64,000 bases of DNA from Acidithiobacillus acidisediminis. Its GTDB lineage: Bacteria > Pseudomonadota > Gammaproteobacteria > Acidithiobacillales > Acidithiobacillaceae. Below the pieces are notes generated by a model, which saw nothing but the letters and a program-made list of their open reading frames with translations, had not been told where the DNA came from and ran no database searches. Shown here one piece after another: positions 45,324 to 50,294 of the stretch. A program made the position numbers and the translations under genes. How positions within the stretch are numbered: position 1 is the first letter of the stretch; every line of letters starts with the position of its first letter. The stretch is from assembly GCF_023277115.1 (NCBI RefSeq), contig NZ_JALQCS010000001.1:862001-926000 (forward strand), written 5' to 3'.

Positions 45324-46456
45324 TGCTGCTGGCGTTCGCCATTGCCGAAGTGCTGGCATGGCTGGTTCTCTACCTGGGGCGGGGAAATTTCTGGCGCGCG
45401 GATCAGCGTCTCGAGGCGGGCGAACTTGCCGCATGGCCCGCGGTGACGGCGGTCGTACCCGCGCGGAATGAGGCCGAAGGCATCGCCGCGTGCGTGCGCG
45501 GTATTCTTGGACAGGATTACCCCGGCGAAGTGCGGCTCATCGTCGTCGACGATCAAAGTAGCGATGGCACCGCAGAGTTGGCCCATGCCGCCGCCGCTGC
45601 CATCGGCGCAGCGACAAGGCTCTCCGTCCTGGCTGGGGAAAATCTGCCCGCTGCGTGGGCGGGCAAGGTCTGGGCGATGGCGCAAGGCGTCGAAGCGGCT
45701 GGTACTGTACCTTACCTTTGGTTTACCGATGGTGACATCGTGCACCAACCGCAGGTGCTGCGCGCGCTGGTTGCCAAGGCAGGAACGGAAAATCGGGTCC
45801 TAGTTTCCCTGATGGTGCGTCTGTCTTGCGAGACCCGGTGGGAGCGCTGGTTGATTCCGCCCTTCCTCTTTTTTTTCCAAAAACTCTATCCCTTCCCCTG
45901 GGTAAATGATCCGCGCCGCCGTACGGCGGGGGCGGCCGGGGGGTGCATGCTCGTTGCCCGCGATGCCCTGCTGGCCAGTGGCGGTCTGCAAGCCATGCGT
46001 GGTGCGTTGATTGATGATTGTACCCTAGCGGCGCAACTGCAGGTGCAGGGGCCTATCTGGTTGGGGCTCGCGGAGCAGAGTGAGAGTCTACGCCGCTACC
46101 AGCGGCTTGGAGAGATCTGGCGCATGGTGGCACGCTCGGCCTACGTACAGCTCGAGTTTCGGCCGTCCCGCCTGCTTCTGGCTACCCTGGGCATGCTTTT
46201 TCTGTACCTCTTACCCTGGGTCTTGTTCATCTTGGGCTTGCTGCAGAACAAACCCTGGGTCTGGGCGCTGTCCTTGCTCAGCTTGCTTCTTTCCTGGCGC
46301 ATGTTCTGGCCGACCCTGCGCGATTACCGGCTTTCTCCTTTCTGGATCTTCAGCCTGCAGCCTGCGGCTTGGCTCTATACCTTGATGACCCTGGATTCCG
46401 CGCGCCGCCACTACCGAGGTCGGGGCGGCGCCTGGAAGGGGCGCACCTACCCCTGA
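45323..46456 (+). CDS. Hopanoid-associated glycosyltransferase, HpnB type
   Basis: 377 residues, GT-A family 2 with membrane segments at both ends. Features: VVPARNEAEGI, VVDDQSSDGTAEL, WFTDGDIVH, GGCMLVARDAL and the tail GRGGAWKGRTY, all typical of HpnB proteins from hopanoid clusters. No squalene-hopene cyclase is in the window, so the acceptor is inferred only from family. Ends 10 bases into the convergent SQR-like gene. Confidence 0.83.
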   Translation: MLLAFAIAEVLAWLVLYLGRGNFWRADQRLEAGELAAWPAVTAVVPARNEAEGIAACVRGILGQDYPGEVRLIVVDDQSSDGTAELAHAAAAAIGAATRLSVLAGENLPAAWAGKVWAMAQGVEAAGTVPYLWFTDGDIVHQPQVLRALVAKAGTENRVLVSLMVRLSCETRWERWLIPPFLFFFQKLYPFPWVNDPRRRTAGAAGGCMLVARDALLASGGLQAMRGALIDDCTLAAQLQVQGPIWLGLAEQSESLRRYQRLGEIWRMVARSAYVQLEFRPSRLLLATLGMLFLYLLPWVLFILGLLQNKPWVWALSLLSLLLSWRMFWPTLRDYRLSPFWIFSLQPAAWLYTLMTLDSARRHYRGRGGAWKGRTYP

Positions 46457-47589
46457 GGCCGCGGGCGGTAAGGGGCCAGGTAGCGCCACTCGAAAGCCCG
46501 TTTGGCGAGATGCCACCACGCGCCGGGCACAACCCGGGCAAGGCTGGGGGAGCGATAGACGAGGTTGCCGCCGTCGAGACTATCGACAATGCAGATGAGC
46601 TCCTTGCGAAACTCTTCCTCTGCTCCCTGACCTTTCAGGTAGCGCAAGGCGTTGCGTACAGCGGTTTTCGCCTGCAGGTCGGCACTGTGCCCCTGTTTTG
46701 GCAGCCAGTCGGGGCTGGCGCTGTAAGAGGCCGCATCGCCGATTACGTAGACGCCGGGCACCCCGGGTACCTGGCAGTGATTGTCGGCTTGCAGGAATCC
46801 TCCGGAGGAGAGGGGTAGGGCGCTGTTGGCCGCAAAATCTGGCCCCGTCATGCCGGGCATGAAGAGGATCAGGTTGGCATCGATATCGCCGCCTCCCGTA
46901 TGCACTTGTTGCGCATCAAAACCGCTGATCTTGTGCCCGAGGTGGGTATGGATCTGACGTTTTTCCATCTCTGCCAGGAGCCCGGCCACGGCCTCCGCCC
47001 CCAGACGGTTGCCGGGCTCGCGCATGGGGTTGAAAAAGGTGAGGGTGAAGGCTTCGCGTCGGCCTTGGCGGCGCAGCCAGGTATCGATGCCGAAGAGCAG
47101 CTCAAAGACCGGCCCGCCACGCACGGCACTGGGTTCCTGCGGGTTGCCGGCAAAGCCAAAGGCGATGCTGCCTCCTTGCATGGCATGCAGGCGATCTCGA
47201 ATCTGCTGCGCCACCTCGATCCCATCACAAATCGCCAGGCTGTGCTCGATACCCGGCAGCTTGCGCAAGCCCCGACCGCCCGCGGCAATGAGCAACACGT
47301 CTTGCTCCAGGATCGTGCCGGTTTCGAGGGTCACGCGCCCCTGTGCATCGATGGATTGGACCTTACCGGGGACGAAGTCGATCTGTTGGCGAGCAAAGAA
47401 ATCACGTAGGTCGATGCGCAGCTCTTCACCCTGGCGCAGACCCGTCGGTACCCAGATCAGGCTCGGGTAATAAATAAACTCGGGTTTGGGCGCGACCAGC
47501 CGTATCTGTAGCTCCGGATCTTGGCGGCGCAGTTCACGCACCGCTGTCAGGCCGCCGAAGCCGCTACCAATAATCGTCACTTGGGTCAT
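46447..47589 (-). CDS. SQR-like FAD-dependent pyridine nucleotide-disulfide oxidoreductase
   Basis: 380 residues with dinucleotide motif IIGSGFGGLTAVREL, second FAD motif VYVIGDAA, and the sulfide:quinone reductase-like segment LICIVDSLDGG. Compared with the Acidithiobacillus SQR cysteines (128, 160, 356), Cys121 and Cys333 appear in equivalent places, but the middle one is missing: the segment reads EPSAVRGGPVFEL. A third cysteine, Cys272, lies elsewhere. It may be a divergent SQR, a persulfide/quinone reductase, or an NDH-2 relative. Neighbouring sulfur dioxygenase supports a sulfur role. Same strand as the sdo operon, 33 bases downstream. Confidence 0.8.
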   Translation of the reverse strand: MTQVTIIGSGFGGLTAVRELRRQDPELQIRLVAPKPEFIYYPSLIWVPTGLRQGEELRIDLRDFFARQQIDFVPGKVQSIDAQGRVTLETGTILEQDVLLIAAGGRGLRKLPGIEHSLAICDGIEVAQQIRDRLHAMQGGSIAFGFAGNPQEPSAVRGGPVFELLFGIDTWLRRQGRREAFTLTFFNPMREPGNRLGAEAVAGLLAEMEKRQIHTHLGHKISGFDAQQVHTGGGDIDANLILFMPGMTGPDFAANSALPLSSGGFLQADNHCQVPGVPGVYVIGDAASYSASPDWLPKQGHSADLQAKTAVRNALRYLKGQGAEEEFRKELICIVDSLDGGNLVYRSPSLARVVPGAWWHLAKRAFEWRYLAPYRPRPQG

Positions 47590-47622: not shown

Positions 47623-48108
47623 TTAGCCCAGAACGCGCTGATAGGCCGCCGGTAGGGGACTCTCTTGTTGCGCTTGCGCGCCGCCGTGGGCGACGAAGAG
47701 GTTGATGACCTGACCGTGCGCCTGAATCAAGGTGACCACATTCGGATCGTCGCTGGTTTCTTCGATCAAGACACCATCCGGGAGCAGGGTCAGCTCCATG
47801 TGAACCTTGCCATGCTGGGCGAAGAGCTCGGCAAAGGCGGGATCCCAAAAGCGCAAGCCAAAGTTCTCTTCCAGACGTTGTTTCATGGAGGGCACATGGT
47901 CGTGCAAGAGGGCAACGATTTCCGGATCGTCCGAGCGTGTTCGCGCACGTATGCCATTGGGCAGGTACTCGAGCTCGCGTTGAATGCGCTCATGCAGAGC
48001 CAGCAGACGATGAAATACCGCCTGGTCATGCTGGTGCCGGGCAGCCCGAGCCGGGTCGCCGCCAGCACGTCCAGCACCGCGGCGCAGGGGAATCAGAGCT
48101 TCGTTCAT
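47623..48108 (-). CDS. Unknown protein made of two 60-residue repeats, in the sulfur cluster
   Basis: 161 residues from the ATG at 48108 (AAGGAG before it). The protein is a clean tandem duplication with a 60-residue period: Phe32/Phe92, His39/His99, LPNG 49-52 / LPDG 109-112, SDDP 59-62 / SDDP 119-122, and His71/His131. No signal peptide or membrane segment. The paired histidines and aspartates could bind metal, but this is a guess. Located between the persulfide dioxygenase (10-base gap) and the SQR-like gene on the same strand, so likely co-expressed with them. I do not recognise a named family. Confidence 0.75.
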   Translation of the reverse strand: MNEALIPLRRGAGRAGGDPARAARHQHDQAVFHRLLALHERIQRELEYLPNGIRARTRSDDPEIVALLHDHVPSMKQRLEENFGLRFWDPAFAELFAQHGKVHMELTLLPDGVLIEETSDDPNVVTLIQAHGQVINLFVAHGGAQAQQESPLPAAYQRVLG

Positions 48109-48118
48109 GGTTTTCTCC

Positions 48119-48808
48119 TTAGTGTTCCGTGCCACAGAGCCGGTTGGCGGGTACGGCCACGTCAATCAGTTTCGGTTTGGGGAGATCCAGGTTGTGCATG
48201 ATCTCGATGAATTCCTGTCGTGACTTGCCGGCAAGACGCGGGTTCAGCTGTTTTTCCTCAGCGATGCAGCTCACCCGCCGACCCTGGTAATCGTGCCCGG
48301 GATAGACCAGGGTCTCCTCCGGGAGAACAAACAGTTTTTCGGTGATGCTGTCGTAGAGGGTTCCGGCATCGCCGCCTTGGAAATCGGTACGGCCGCAGCC
48401 ACCAATGAGCAAGGCATCGCCGGTAAAGACCCGATCGTGCCAGCGAAAACTCAACGACTCTGGCGTATGCCCGGGGGTAGCAAGGACGCGGATCACGTCA
48501 TCGCCCAGGACCAGGAAATCGCCGTCACTCACCTGCAGATCGGCACAGTCGGCCCCGGCAAGCGCGCTCAGGACCACCTGGGCGTCGGTAACCTCGCGCA
48601 GCTTTTTCGCTGCGCTGATATGGTCGGCATGGAGGTGGGTCTCGAGGATATGGGTCAGATGCAGATCCTGCTCACGCAGGGTAGCGAGCACCGCATTCGT
48701 GGCGTCGGATACTGCATCGATGACGACGGCGTCGCGCCAGGTACTATCGGCGAGGATGTAGGTGTAAGTACTACTCTCGGGATGAAATAATTGGCGAAAG
48801 AACATCAT
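48119..48808 (-). CDS. sdo: Persulfide (sulfur) dioxygenase, ETHE1-like
   Basis: Oxidises glutathione persulfide to sulfite with O2. 229-residue metallo-beta-lactamase fold: THLHADHIS (His58, His60, Asp62, His63), TPGHTPESLSFRWHDRVFTGDALLIGG, and CGRTDFQGGDAGTLYDSI, which with YPGHDYQGR is specific to ETHE1 rather than glyoxalase II. Mononuclear iron expected. AAGGAGTGA precedes the ATG. First gene of a probable operon with the repeat protein and the SQR-like gene, driven from the Fnr-box promoter at 48851-48892. Confidence 0.93.
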   Translation of the reverse strand: MMFFRQLFHPESSTYTYILADSTWRDAVVIDAVSDATNAVLATLREQDLHLTHILETHLHADHISAAKKLREVTDAQVVLSALAGADCADLQVSDGDFLVLGDDVIRVLATPGHTPESLSFRWHDRVFTGDALLIGGCGRTDFQGGDAGTLYDSITEKLFVLPEETLVYPGHDYQGRRVSCIAEEKQLNPRLAGKSRQEFIEIMHNLDLPKPKLIDVAVPANRLCGTEH

Positions 48809-48850
48809 TCACTCCTTGCCCAAGGGGCAGAACGCTCTGTGCTTGGGGGC

Positions 48851-48892
48851 ATTGTCCTGCACCTGCCCCTCCGCTGCATTGACAAAAGTCAA
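48851..48892 (-). promoter_or_regulatory. Fnr/Crp-type box and class II promoter of the sdo operon
   Basis: Perfect palindrome TTGAC-N4-GTCAA at 48879-48892. On the minus strand GACAAT (48851-48856) follows 22 bases later as a -10 element, which puts the box centre at -41.5, the position of class II Fnr-activated promoters. Predicted start near 48844 leaves a ~36-base leader before the sdo ATG. Confidence 0.75.
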
Positions 48893-48903
48893 TCCTGAGT
48901 GAA

Positions 48904-49602
48904 TTAGTCGGGTTTGGCTGCGGCAATGTCCTCCAGCCGGCCGCTGGCCAGAATTTCCAATTGATTGCGACTCTCCTGCAGCAGGCCTTGCCGCTTGAAC
49001 TCCGCCATCAAGCGACTGACGTGCTCCACCGAGAGGCCCAGAAAGGCCGCCAGATCCTGGCGGGTCAACGGAAAGGGAAGGCTACGAAGTTGCGGATAGC
49101 GGCTGGCCCACTGCAGGAGAAAGGTGGCCAGACGGGCCTCTGCCTTTTTTGCGCCCAGTTCCACGACGCGCTCCTCACTATCGCGTAATGCCTCCTGCCA
49201 ACGCCGAAAGATGGCTTCGCGAATTTTTGGCAGGCGCTCGGACAGAACTTGCAGTTCGATCAGGTCCAGGCGGCAGACCTTGCCCTGCGTCAGGCTGATG
49301 GCATCGTGGCGATGCAATTCTTCCTGCATCCCCTCAAAGCCAAAGAGATCGCCATGGTGCAGAAGACGCAGGATGACCTCCTGACCTGAGCGCAAGGGCT
49401 TGACCAGTTTTACCGCGCCCTCACGCAAGGTGTAGGCATAGCGCGCCGGATCGCCGGTGCGGTAGAGAACTTCTCCAGGCGCGCAATCGAGGTCCTGTAC
49501 TTCCATGCCCAGAGTACAGAGTTCGACGGGATCGAGGCCGGCGAAGATGCTCTCGCCGCGCATCTGACAATGCAGGCAGTCGGAAAGGCGGGCTGCCTTC
49601 AT
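48904..49602 (-). CDS. Crp/Fnr-family regulator with partial Fe-S cysteine set
   Basis: 232 residues from the ATG at 49602, which overlaps the trmB stop (ATGA); an ATG four codons upstream is an alternative. N-terminal CLHC (Cys9, Cys12) and Cys110 in KVCRLDL correspond to three of the four FNR cluster ligands, but the third N-terminal ligand is replaced (SIFAGL where FnrN proteins have a Cys). The recognition helix SVEHVSRLMAEFKRQ keeps the E-x2-S-R pattern of FNR, fitting the TTGAC box found 12 bases past its stop. Probable local activator of the sdo operon. Confidence 0.87.
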   Translation of the reverse strand: MKAARLSDCLHCQMRGESIFAGLDPVELCTLGMEVQDLDCAPGEVLYRTGDPARYAYTLREGAVKLVKPLRSGQEVILRLLHHGDLFGFEGMQEELHRHDAISLTQGKVCRLDLIELQVLSERLPKIREAIFRRWQEALRDSEERVVELGAKKAEARLATFLLQWASRYPQLRSLPFPLTRQDLAAFLGLSVEHVSRLMAEFKRQGLLQESRNQLEILASGRLEDIAAAKPD

Positions 49603-50294
49603 GGCGCCTGCCATTGAAAACGGAGATCGAAAACAGTATGGCCGAGGGCGGTTCCGCGCCGCTCGAAGCGGGTTTGGATGCGGTTTTCCGGTGCCGGGGA
49701 GAAATTGCCCGGGCCGGCGAGATTGCGCCAGCCGGGTTCTGCTTCGACGACTTGCAGCATCTGCTGGGCGTAGGGCTCCCAGTCCGTCGCCAGTTGCAGT
49801 TCGCCGCCGGGCCGAAGGATATGCTGCAGAATCTGCACAAACTCGGATTGGATGAGGCGTCGTTTGTGGTGCCGTTTCTTGGGCCAGGGGTCGGGGAACT
49901 GAATGACGATCATGGCGAAGAGACCAGCGGGAAGGGCGCGCAACCAGGGCACGACATCGCTGTGCACGATCCGCAGGTTCTGCAGCCCCAGTTCTTCAGC
50001 CCGTAAGAGTAGCGCACCCACGCCGGGGGCATGGACCTCGGCGCCTACGCAGCCCCAATCTGGATGCTGCTGTGCAAATTGCGCCAGATGCTCCCCATTG
50101 CCAAAGCCAATCTCGAGCAGTAGCGGCGTGTTGCTAGGCCAAGGCGAGTGCCAGGGGGACTGCGCATCCACCAGATACGACTCTGCACCCTCCCGCAGGA
50201 TGCGCGCCTGCGCCGTCGTCAATCGGCCTTGGCGCAGGACGAAACTCCGGATGGGGCGGATTTCGGGCTTGAGACTCTCCTTCATGCCCGGCAT
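49599..50294 (-). CDS. trmB: tRNA (guanine-46-N7)-methyltransferase
   Basis: 231 residues with the SAM motif LLLEIGFGNGEHL, EVHAPGVGALL, and the catalytic IQFPDPWPKKRHHKRRL. Modifies G46 in the tRNA variable loop. Divergent from purE; upstream of the Fnr-like regulator with a four-base overlap. Confidence 0.95.
   Translation of the reverse strand: MPGMKESLKPEIRPIRSFVLRQGRLTTAQARILREGAESYLVDAQSPWHSPWPSNTPLLLEIGFGNGEHLAQFAQQHPDWGCVGAEVHAPGVGALLLRAEELGLQNLRIVHSDVVPWLRALPAGLFAMIVIQFPDPWPKKRHHKRRLIQSEFVQILQHILRPGGELQLATDWEPYAQQMLQVVEAEPGWRNLAGPGNFSPAPENRIQTRFERRGTALGHTVFDLRFQWQAP

Follow-up and report, generated by a model that had tools for sequence, protein, structure and literature searches.

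What controls the genes for sulfide and persulfide handling that lie behind an Fnr-type regulator gene in Acidithiobacillus acidisediminis? In the window, the whole 64-kb stretch of DNA that was analysed, the minus strand carries in order a trmB-like gene, fnr, a palindrome, sdo, orfX and sqr (Table 1). The palindrome falls in the 95-bp gap between the fnr stop codon, which ends at 48904, and the sdo start at 48808. An earlier note on this DNA had taken it for an Fnr box through which the neighbouring regulator activates sulfur oxidation. The sdo product is related in sequence to solved ETHE1-type enzymes (4chl, 4ysb); the sqr product is related to solved sulfide:quinone reductases (SQRs; 3hyv, E 2e-21; 3kpk, E 7e-19) and scores under every NCBIfam cut-off. 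Judged from sequence comparison, the site is a real and strongly conserved Fnr-type promoter, whose target is read here differently from the first proposal.

Table 1. Features of the fnr-sdo-orfX-sqr locus (window coordinates)
Feature	Coordinates	Strand	Basis or remark
sqr: sulfide:quinone reductase-like flavoprotein, AFE_0267 position	46447..47589	-	family and structure matches
orfX: 161-aa protein, no family assigned	47623..48108	-	orthologue comparison, structure model
sdo: ETHE1-type persulfide (sulfur) dioxygenase	48119..48808	-	matches human ETHE1 4chl (E 5e-63) and 4ysb (E 4e-86)
Shine-Dalgarno-like AAGGAG of sdo	48812..48817	-	sequence
Predicted transcription start, 7 bp past the -10 element	48844	-	
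-10 element GACAAT	48851..48856	-	first base 29.5 bp from box centre
TGC directly 3' of the box, about -34 to -32	48876..48878	-	sequence
Fnr-type palindrome, TTGACTTTTGTCAA on the transcribed (-) strand	48879..48892	-	centre 48885.5
fnr: Fnr-type regulator, orthologue of A. ferrooxidans FNR (AFE_0270)	48904..49614	-	
trmB-like tRNA methyltransferase gene (Methyltransf_4), overlapping the fnr start	49599..50294	-	

The palindrome behind fnr

The palindrome, TTGACAAAAGTCAA at 48879-48892, has the perfect TTGAC-N4-GTCAA form that the earlier note had described between the Fnr-like gene and sdo, and so belongs with the TTGAT-N4-ATCAA-like palindromes of class II FNR-type promoters. No other TTGAY-N4-RTCAA site occurs in the 64-kb window, where 0.15 would be expected by chance; for the 95-bp gap the expectation is ~0.0002. 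FixK-type boxes, TTGA-N6-TCAA, have the same outer half-sites, and to our knowledge FixK has no Fe-S cysteines.

Conservation was assessed by using the regulator as a query against 29 genomes of the family. Full orthologues (59-100% identity) were found in 18 of them and one cut by a contig end in another (G012), and the palindrome lies behind all 19, counted per genome among relatives that are not independent. The match to TTGA-N6-TCAA is exact in 18 of the 19; the single mismatched box, in L028, has GCAA in place of TCAA. The 25 loci compared were reduced to a set of 20 sequences, namely the 19 orthologue loci and L048, a 49% paralogue beside an sdo that was included for showing the site. 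Left outside the set were another paralogue without a box (L049), a locus treated as a duplicate of G019 (L016) and three distant loci without a box (L017-L019). Within the set, TTGA-N6-TCAA is exact in 18/20 sequences and the fully symmetric TTGAY-N4-RTCAA is present in 11/20, the half-site reading TTGAC in the window and TTGAC or TTGAT in the relatives. In the alignment of the relatives, pairwise identity is 94-97% in the half-sites, 61-62% in the N6 core, 50-66% on the upstream side where fnr ends, and 28-34% in the spacer before the -10 element and in the DNA beyond. The TGC directly after the box recurs at all 19 orthologue loci and at L048. Since the alignment anchor demands CAATGC, the identity of CAA and TGC (100% for TGC) arises partly by construction, and no orthologue locus was lost to this requirement.

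Beyond the family genomes, a search of a contig collection with the regulator returned four loci, one from Acidithiobacillus (L016) and three, 34-36% identical, that lack a box downstream, and a plasmid collection gave no match. In two genomes of the sister family the best regulator matches reach 28-30% identity, and palindromes occur near those genes. The conservation is strong comparative evidence for the site, and the palindrome is evidently not due to chance, because it sits behind all 19 orthologues of the regulator.

Spacing of the promoter elements

If transcription starts 7 bp past GACAAT (48844), the box centre at 48885.5 falls at -41.5. The earlier note had counted the same distances, and they hold. 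Of the 20 sequences, 19 have a hexamer with A in its second and T in its sixth position whose first base is 29.5 bp from the box centre; in L028 the distance is 30.5 bp. When the 20 sequences were averaged over 47 offsets with an assumed -10 scoring matrix, 29.5 was the best position for a -10 element (3.31 bits; runner-up -1.91), and nine representatives gave the same peak (2.19 bits; runner-up -2.33). None of 5000 base shuffles, which do not keep the relatedness of the sequences, reached the 29.5 score at any offset. Single sequences give a weaker signal: a simple score places 29.5 first or joint first in 18/20 and alone in first place in 12/20, with another hexamer ahead in L022, the 30.5 hexamer ahead in L028 and ties in six others. 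GACAAT alone is a mediocre -10 element, and its conserved part is the A at position 2 and the T at position 6.

At 16-18 bp from the hexamer, the best match to a -35 element is no better than 3/6 in all 20 sequences, which points to the absence of a functional -35. A standard sigma-70 promoter with a -35 element was discarded on this ground, and a scan of 48700-49000 detected neither a sigma-70 promoter pair nor a terminator. A terminator reading of the box region was dropped after the same scan, and a known structured RNA after a search of 48600-49100 against Rfam returned nothing up to E 0.1.

Class II FNR-activated promoters of E. coli have the site centred at -41.5, and this spacing, together with a missing -35 and a kept -10, is the layout of activator-dependent promoters. 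Because of the palindrome, the kept distance to the -10 element and the lack of a usable -35, the site resembles a class II Fnr-type promoter that the family has conserved. It shares with the E. coli promoters the half-site geometry, a spacing that would put the centre at -41.5, the presence of a -10 element and a poor -35, and differs from them in the half-site (TTGAC, or in relatives also TTGAT), in the TGC after the site and in having a sulfide/persulfide operon as its target. Its probable role is that of a class II Fnr-dependent promoter of an sdo-orfX-sqr operon, read by the neighbouring Fnr.

The regulator and other candidate controls

The window regulator is a Crp/Fnr protein with Cys20, Cys23, Ser29 and Cys122, in what we take to be the sequence and residue numbering of E. 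coli FNR. Its orthologues retain Cys20, Cys23 and Ser29 in 17/17 cases that reach the N terminus, and Cys122 in 18/18. By a strict four-Cys definition of FNR (positions 20, 23, 29 and 122) it falls short, with Ser at 29 and the other three Cys in place. Its best NCBIfam match is Fnr NF008365, at 97 bits against a cut-off of 228; FixK, at 90 bits, is also below its cut-off. A. ferrooxidans FNR (AFE_0270) is an orthologue with the same Cys20/23/122 and Ser29. In the literature searched, no study of the window regulator itself was found.

Evidence that such a protein can function comes from work on FNR_AF, which was reported to hold ~4.5 Fe per monomer, to be unusually stable in air and slow to react with it, and to drive E. 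coli PnarG at ~70% of the level of E. coli FNR (PMC6659574). Given that FNR_AF holds this iron with the same ligand set, the three-Cys regulator may, by analogy, work like FNR. Ser29 and Cys40 were weighed in that study as alternatives for the fourth cluster ligand (PMC6659574). Cys40 is present in only 15/18 orthologues and Ser29 in 17/17, a comparison that favours Ser29. The same paper reports no FNR site upstream of A. ferrooxidans fnr and describes the predicted role of FNR_AF as being without an experimental test as of 2019. The box just downstream of fnr falls within a reverse primer of its Table 2, and the available text holds no discussion of that box (PMC6659574). Gene order, place and this primer indicate that genome G007 is A. 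ferrooxidans ATCC 23270.

The earlier note proposed the neighbouring Fnr as the reader. The box is kept beside fnr, and 18/18 orthologues have Glu209, Ser212 and Arg213 (E. coli numbering) in the recognition helix. These residues are not specific to the regulator. Five Crp/Fnr matches were found in the window genome, the regulator and four paralogues, and all four paralogues have Glu209/Ser212/Arg213, so that the neighbouring Fnr is the presumed reader. None of the four has Cys122. The box might thus be read mainly by another Crp/Fnr paralogue, for example the one beside a globin gene, with nitric oxide or nitrate as the signal. The same half-sites do precede narG and two globin genes, one of which lies beside a paralogue gene. 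Against this, this fnr has the box beside it in 19/19 genomes, and its core is mostly A/T-rich at the sdo/orfX promoter versus mixed at the globins. The only close sdo in a genome without fnr, that of G024, has no box, which says little about the paralogues because no Crp/Fnr was found in that 61%-complete genome. Control mainly by a paralogue is on balance unlikely, and the neighbouring Fnr is retained as the preferred reader.

The window genome has 15 perfect TTGAY-N4-RTCAA sites, versus 3 for the reversed control; tatA, sdo, two globins and narG are the genes with such a site in promoter position. ORF calls around the genome-wide boxes are crude, with tatA, narG, the globins and gltX checked against NCBIfam; by these calls most remaining perfect sites lie inside ORFs. 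Three are uncertain: L003, L002, which rests on a weak ORF, and L007, at an ORF end just before a presumably RNase PH-like gene. The search for the same box before other sulfur genes that the earlier note suggested came back empty, with no second sulfur gene recognised, on these crude calls, behind any of the 15 sites. A wider sulfur regulon in the window genome was set aside, the sdo site being the only one of the 15 to precede a recognised sulfur gene.

Across the family, a pattern with an A/T core, defined after the boxes were known, has 24 matches in 17/29 genomes: 15 at this promoter, one at a second sdo locus, four at a molybdopterin-reductase operon and four elsewhere. By its domains, the molybdopterin-reductase operon fits the sulfur reductase sre. 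A box precedes it in G001, G003, G007 and G008, and there is none before the sre-like operons of G025, which has fnr, and G021, which has not; by first gene, four of six close orthologues are boxed, that of G001 being a fragment at a contig end. The hexamer at 29.5 is unfit there (GTAGCA), and TAGCAT one base further would put the -10 at 30.5. TGC is absent after the sre-like boxes.

Globin genes adjoining Fnr paralogues carry TTGAY-N4-RTCAA as well (L141:3294-3307, L168, L177, L179, L184 and L187), with a hexamer, CAGACT or GATACT, at 29.5 bp. These boxes are probably a parallel promoter class that serves another sensor. Two further pairs of a Crp/Fnr paralogue and an orfX paralogue were seen at L142 (G000:C1:2002935-2004427) and L143 (G000:C1:2046256-2047801), and by eye the orfX paralogues of both begin with an apparent signal peptide.

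A different alternative is that Fnr binding represses the operon and that the promoter is driven otherwise, for example by read-through from trmB-fnr. Position alone does not give the sign of control, the operon genes follow fnr on the same strand, and the scan of 48700-49000 showed no terminator. The -41.5 spacing, the missing -35 and the kept -10 are nevertheless the layout of an activator-dependent promoter, and sdo12 has been reported to rise anaerobically (PMC12016491), which makes repression improbable. Quorum sensing through AfeR could instead be the main control, with the Fnr box secondary. Lux-box sequences were reported for AFE_0269, and afeI overexpression lowers AFE_0267 and AFE_0269 transcripts on S0 (PMC7984328). 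This proposed action of AfeR on AFE_0269 is counter-evidence to exclusive control by Fnr. The lux-box is, on the other hand, predicted from sequence in a single species, the Fnr box is conserved family-wide, and the two controls are not mutually exclusive, so AfeR is improbable as the main control. That the palindrome arose by chance, or that the stretch is retained on some other account such as the fnr end, a terminator or a structured RNA, is scarcely credible: the box does follow the fnr stop codon closely, and in L023 and L028 the two overlap, but the -10 spacing is kept while the distance from box to stop ranges from -4 to +40, ~0.0002 such sites are expected in the gap, and the scans gave no terminator and no Rfam match up to E 0.1. 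Activation by the neighbouring Fnr is the reading carried forward below.

Proposed targets and mechanism

The earlier note had named the sdo operon as the target. The box does precede sdo in the window and in 11/19 genomes overall. In seven (G022, G025, G026, G016, G011, G001 and G017) sdo is absent behind the box, two of which (G016 and G011) carry sdo at another locus, and G009 has a remnant, judged by eye. The box and the -10 element are thus retained in 8/19 genomes in which sdo is missing there or a remnant, which argues against sdo as the constant target. On a poorly resolved tree of 18 fnr orthologues, built without G012, sdo presence requires three changes, at least two of them forced by well-supported branches. 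In contrast to sdo, orfX is constant: at 68% identity or more it occurs in exactly the 19 fnr-bearing genomes and in 0/10 others, with relatives of 33-34% only in G020 and G021, which lack fnr. The comparison makes it likely that orfX is the constant target and sdo an accessory. Because fnr and orfX adjoin, their co-occurrence may reflect gain or loss of one block.

A box lies ahead of 14 of the 15 sdo orthologues with at least 63% identity, exact in 11 and with one mismatch in three. Boxed copies include those at second loci, of which G011:C46 and G016:C35 have no fnr match in the flank examined; the sole unboxed one is that of G024, a 61%-complete genome without an fnr match. Nine further sdo copies are at ~52% identity, and the six of them examined have no box. 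No box was found before 12 sqr homologues at 60-68% identity away from fnr (one with 195 upstream bases only), and in 6/19 genomes (G016, G011, G001, G017, G009 and G010) the best sqr homologue has no box and is distant or on a different contig. G016:C35 (L202/L213) is a degraded second copy that comprises a perfect palindrome, TTGATATTTATCAA, an orfX paralogue, a second box, an sdo with an internal stop in the match and a truncated orfX.

For the orfX product, a structure model (pLDDT 81) shows a duplicated helix-strand-strand-helix. The model has no PDB match at E 0.001, the best score in a second comparison (Z 5.0) is common background, and domain searches assigned no family. Three His are invariant in 13 aligned proteins.

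Published genetics of sdo points both ways. AFE_0269 was shown to be an active persulfide dioxygenase, and an A. ferrooxidans AFE_0269 mutant grows much more slowly on S0 (reviewed in PMC6335251), which counts against sdo as an accessory. In A. caldus, growth of sdo mutants on S0 is normal (PMC5584763). The repeated loss of sdo fits a gene that is useful only in some niches.

With respect to the signal, the "activation of sulfur oxidation" of the earlier note leaves out low oxygen, the likely signal in view of the activator's FNR type and of published expression data. Wild-type A. ferrooxidans expresses sdo12 and sreAC more strongly under anaerobic conditions, and an overexpressed AFE_0267 SQR has a phenotype only anaerobically (PMC12016491). 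These data fit low-oxygen activation, with the caveat that the "sdo12" of PMC12016491 is not plainly AFE_0269.

A mechanism along these lines would begin with a [4Fe-4S] cluster in the neighbouring FNR_AF-type Fnr, held by three Cys and probably Ser29. At low oxygen the Fnr dimer would bind at -41.5, contact RNA polymerase in place of the -35 element and recruit it. The operon would thereby be turned on, yielding SQR, SDO where present, and the orfX product for sulfide and persulfide handling. Anaerobic activation of the oxygen-requiring sdo is paradoxical and speaks against this explanation. Since FNR_AF is reported to be slow to react with air, the promoter may stay on in micro-oxic settings that still allow the oxygen-using SDO to work; alternatively, SDO under Fnr would make sense if the module were needed at the oxic-anoxic border. 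A more specific version is offered tentatively, as possible and somewhat short of probable: an oxygen-tolerant FNR with three Cys and one Ser would run a micro-oxic sulfide/persulfide module from which the dioxygenase has been repeatedly lost, leaving the promoter and orfX as its core.

Osorio's work of 2009 reportedly predicted FNR-regulated genes. An Fnr site before sdo is described in none of the available texts of PMC6659574, PMC5584763, PMC12016491, PMC6335251, PMC10322971, PMC5506826, PMC7984328, PMC13188885 and PMC12170894, and an earlier prediction of it is possible. In the available text of the RegA study, sqr is AFE_1792 and "sdo" does not occur (PMC5506826). SqrR, BigR and FisR likewise control persulfide dioxygenase or other sulfur-oxidation genes; they are sulfur-sensing proteins of the ArsR or Fis type, whereas the candidate here is a Crp/Fnr iron-sulfur protein (PMC12170894).

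The A. ferrooxidans-type FNR thus gains a concrete candidate promoter, conserved wherever the regulator is found in the family, and orfX is singled out as a protein worth study. The finding also bears on the question of the fourth cluster ligand of FNR_AF. For such genes, the available text of PMC12170894 names regulators that sense sulfur. The site suggests that oxygen rather than sulfur controls the sulfide/persulfide genes here, which in bioleaching bacteria would tie the handling of sulfide and persulfide to the sensing of oxygen. If this is true, control of persulfide oxidation would lie with oxygen and not with a sulfur sensor.
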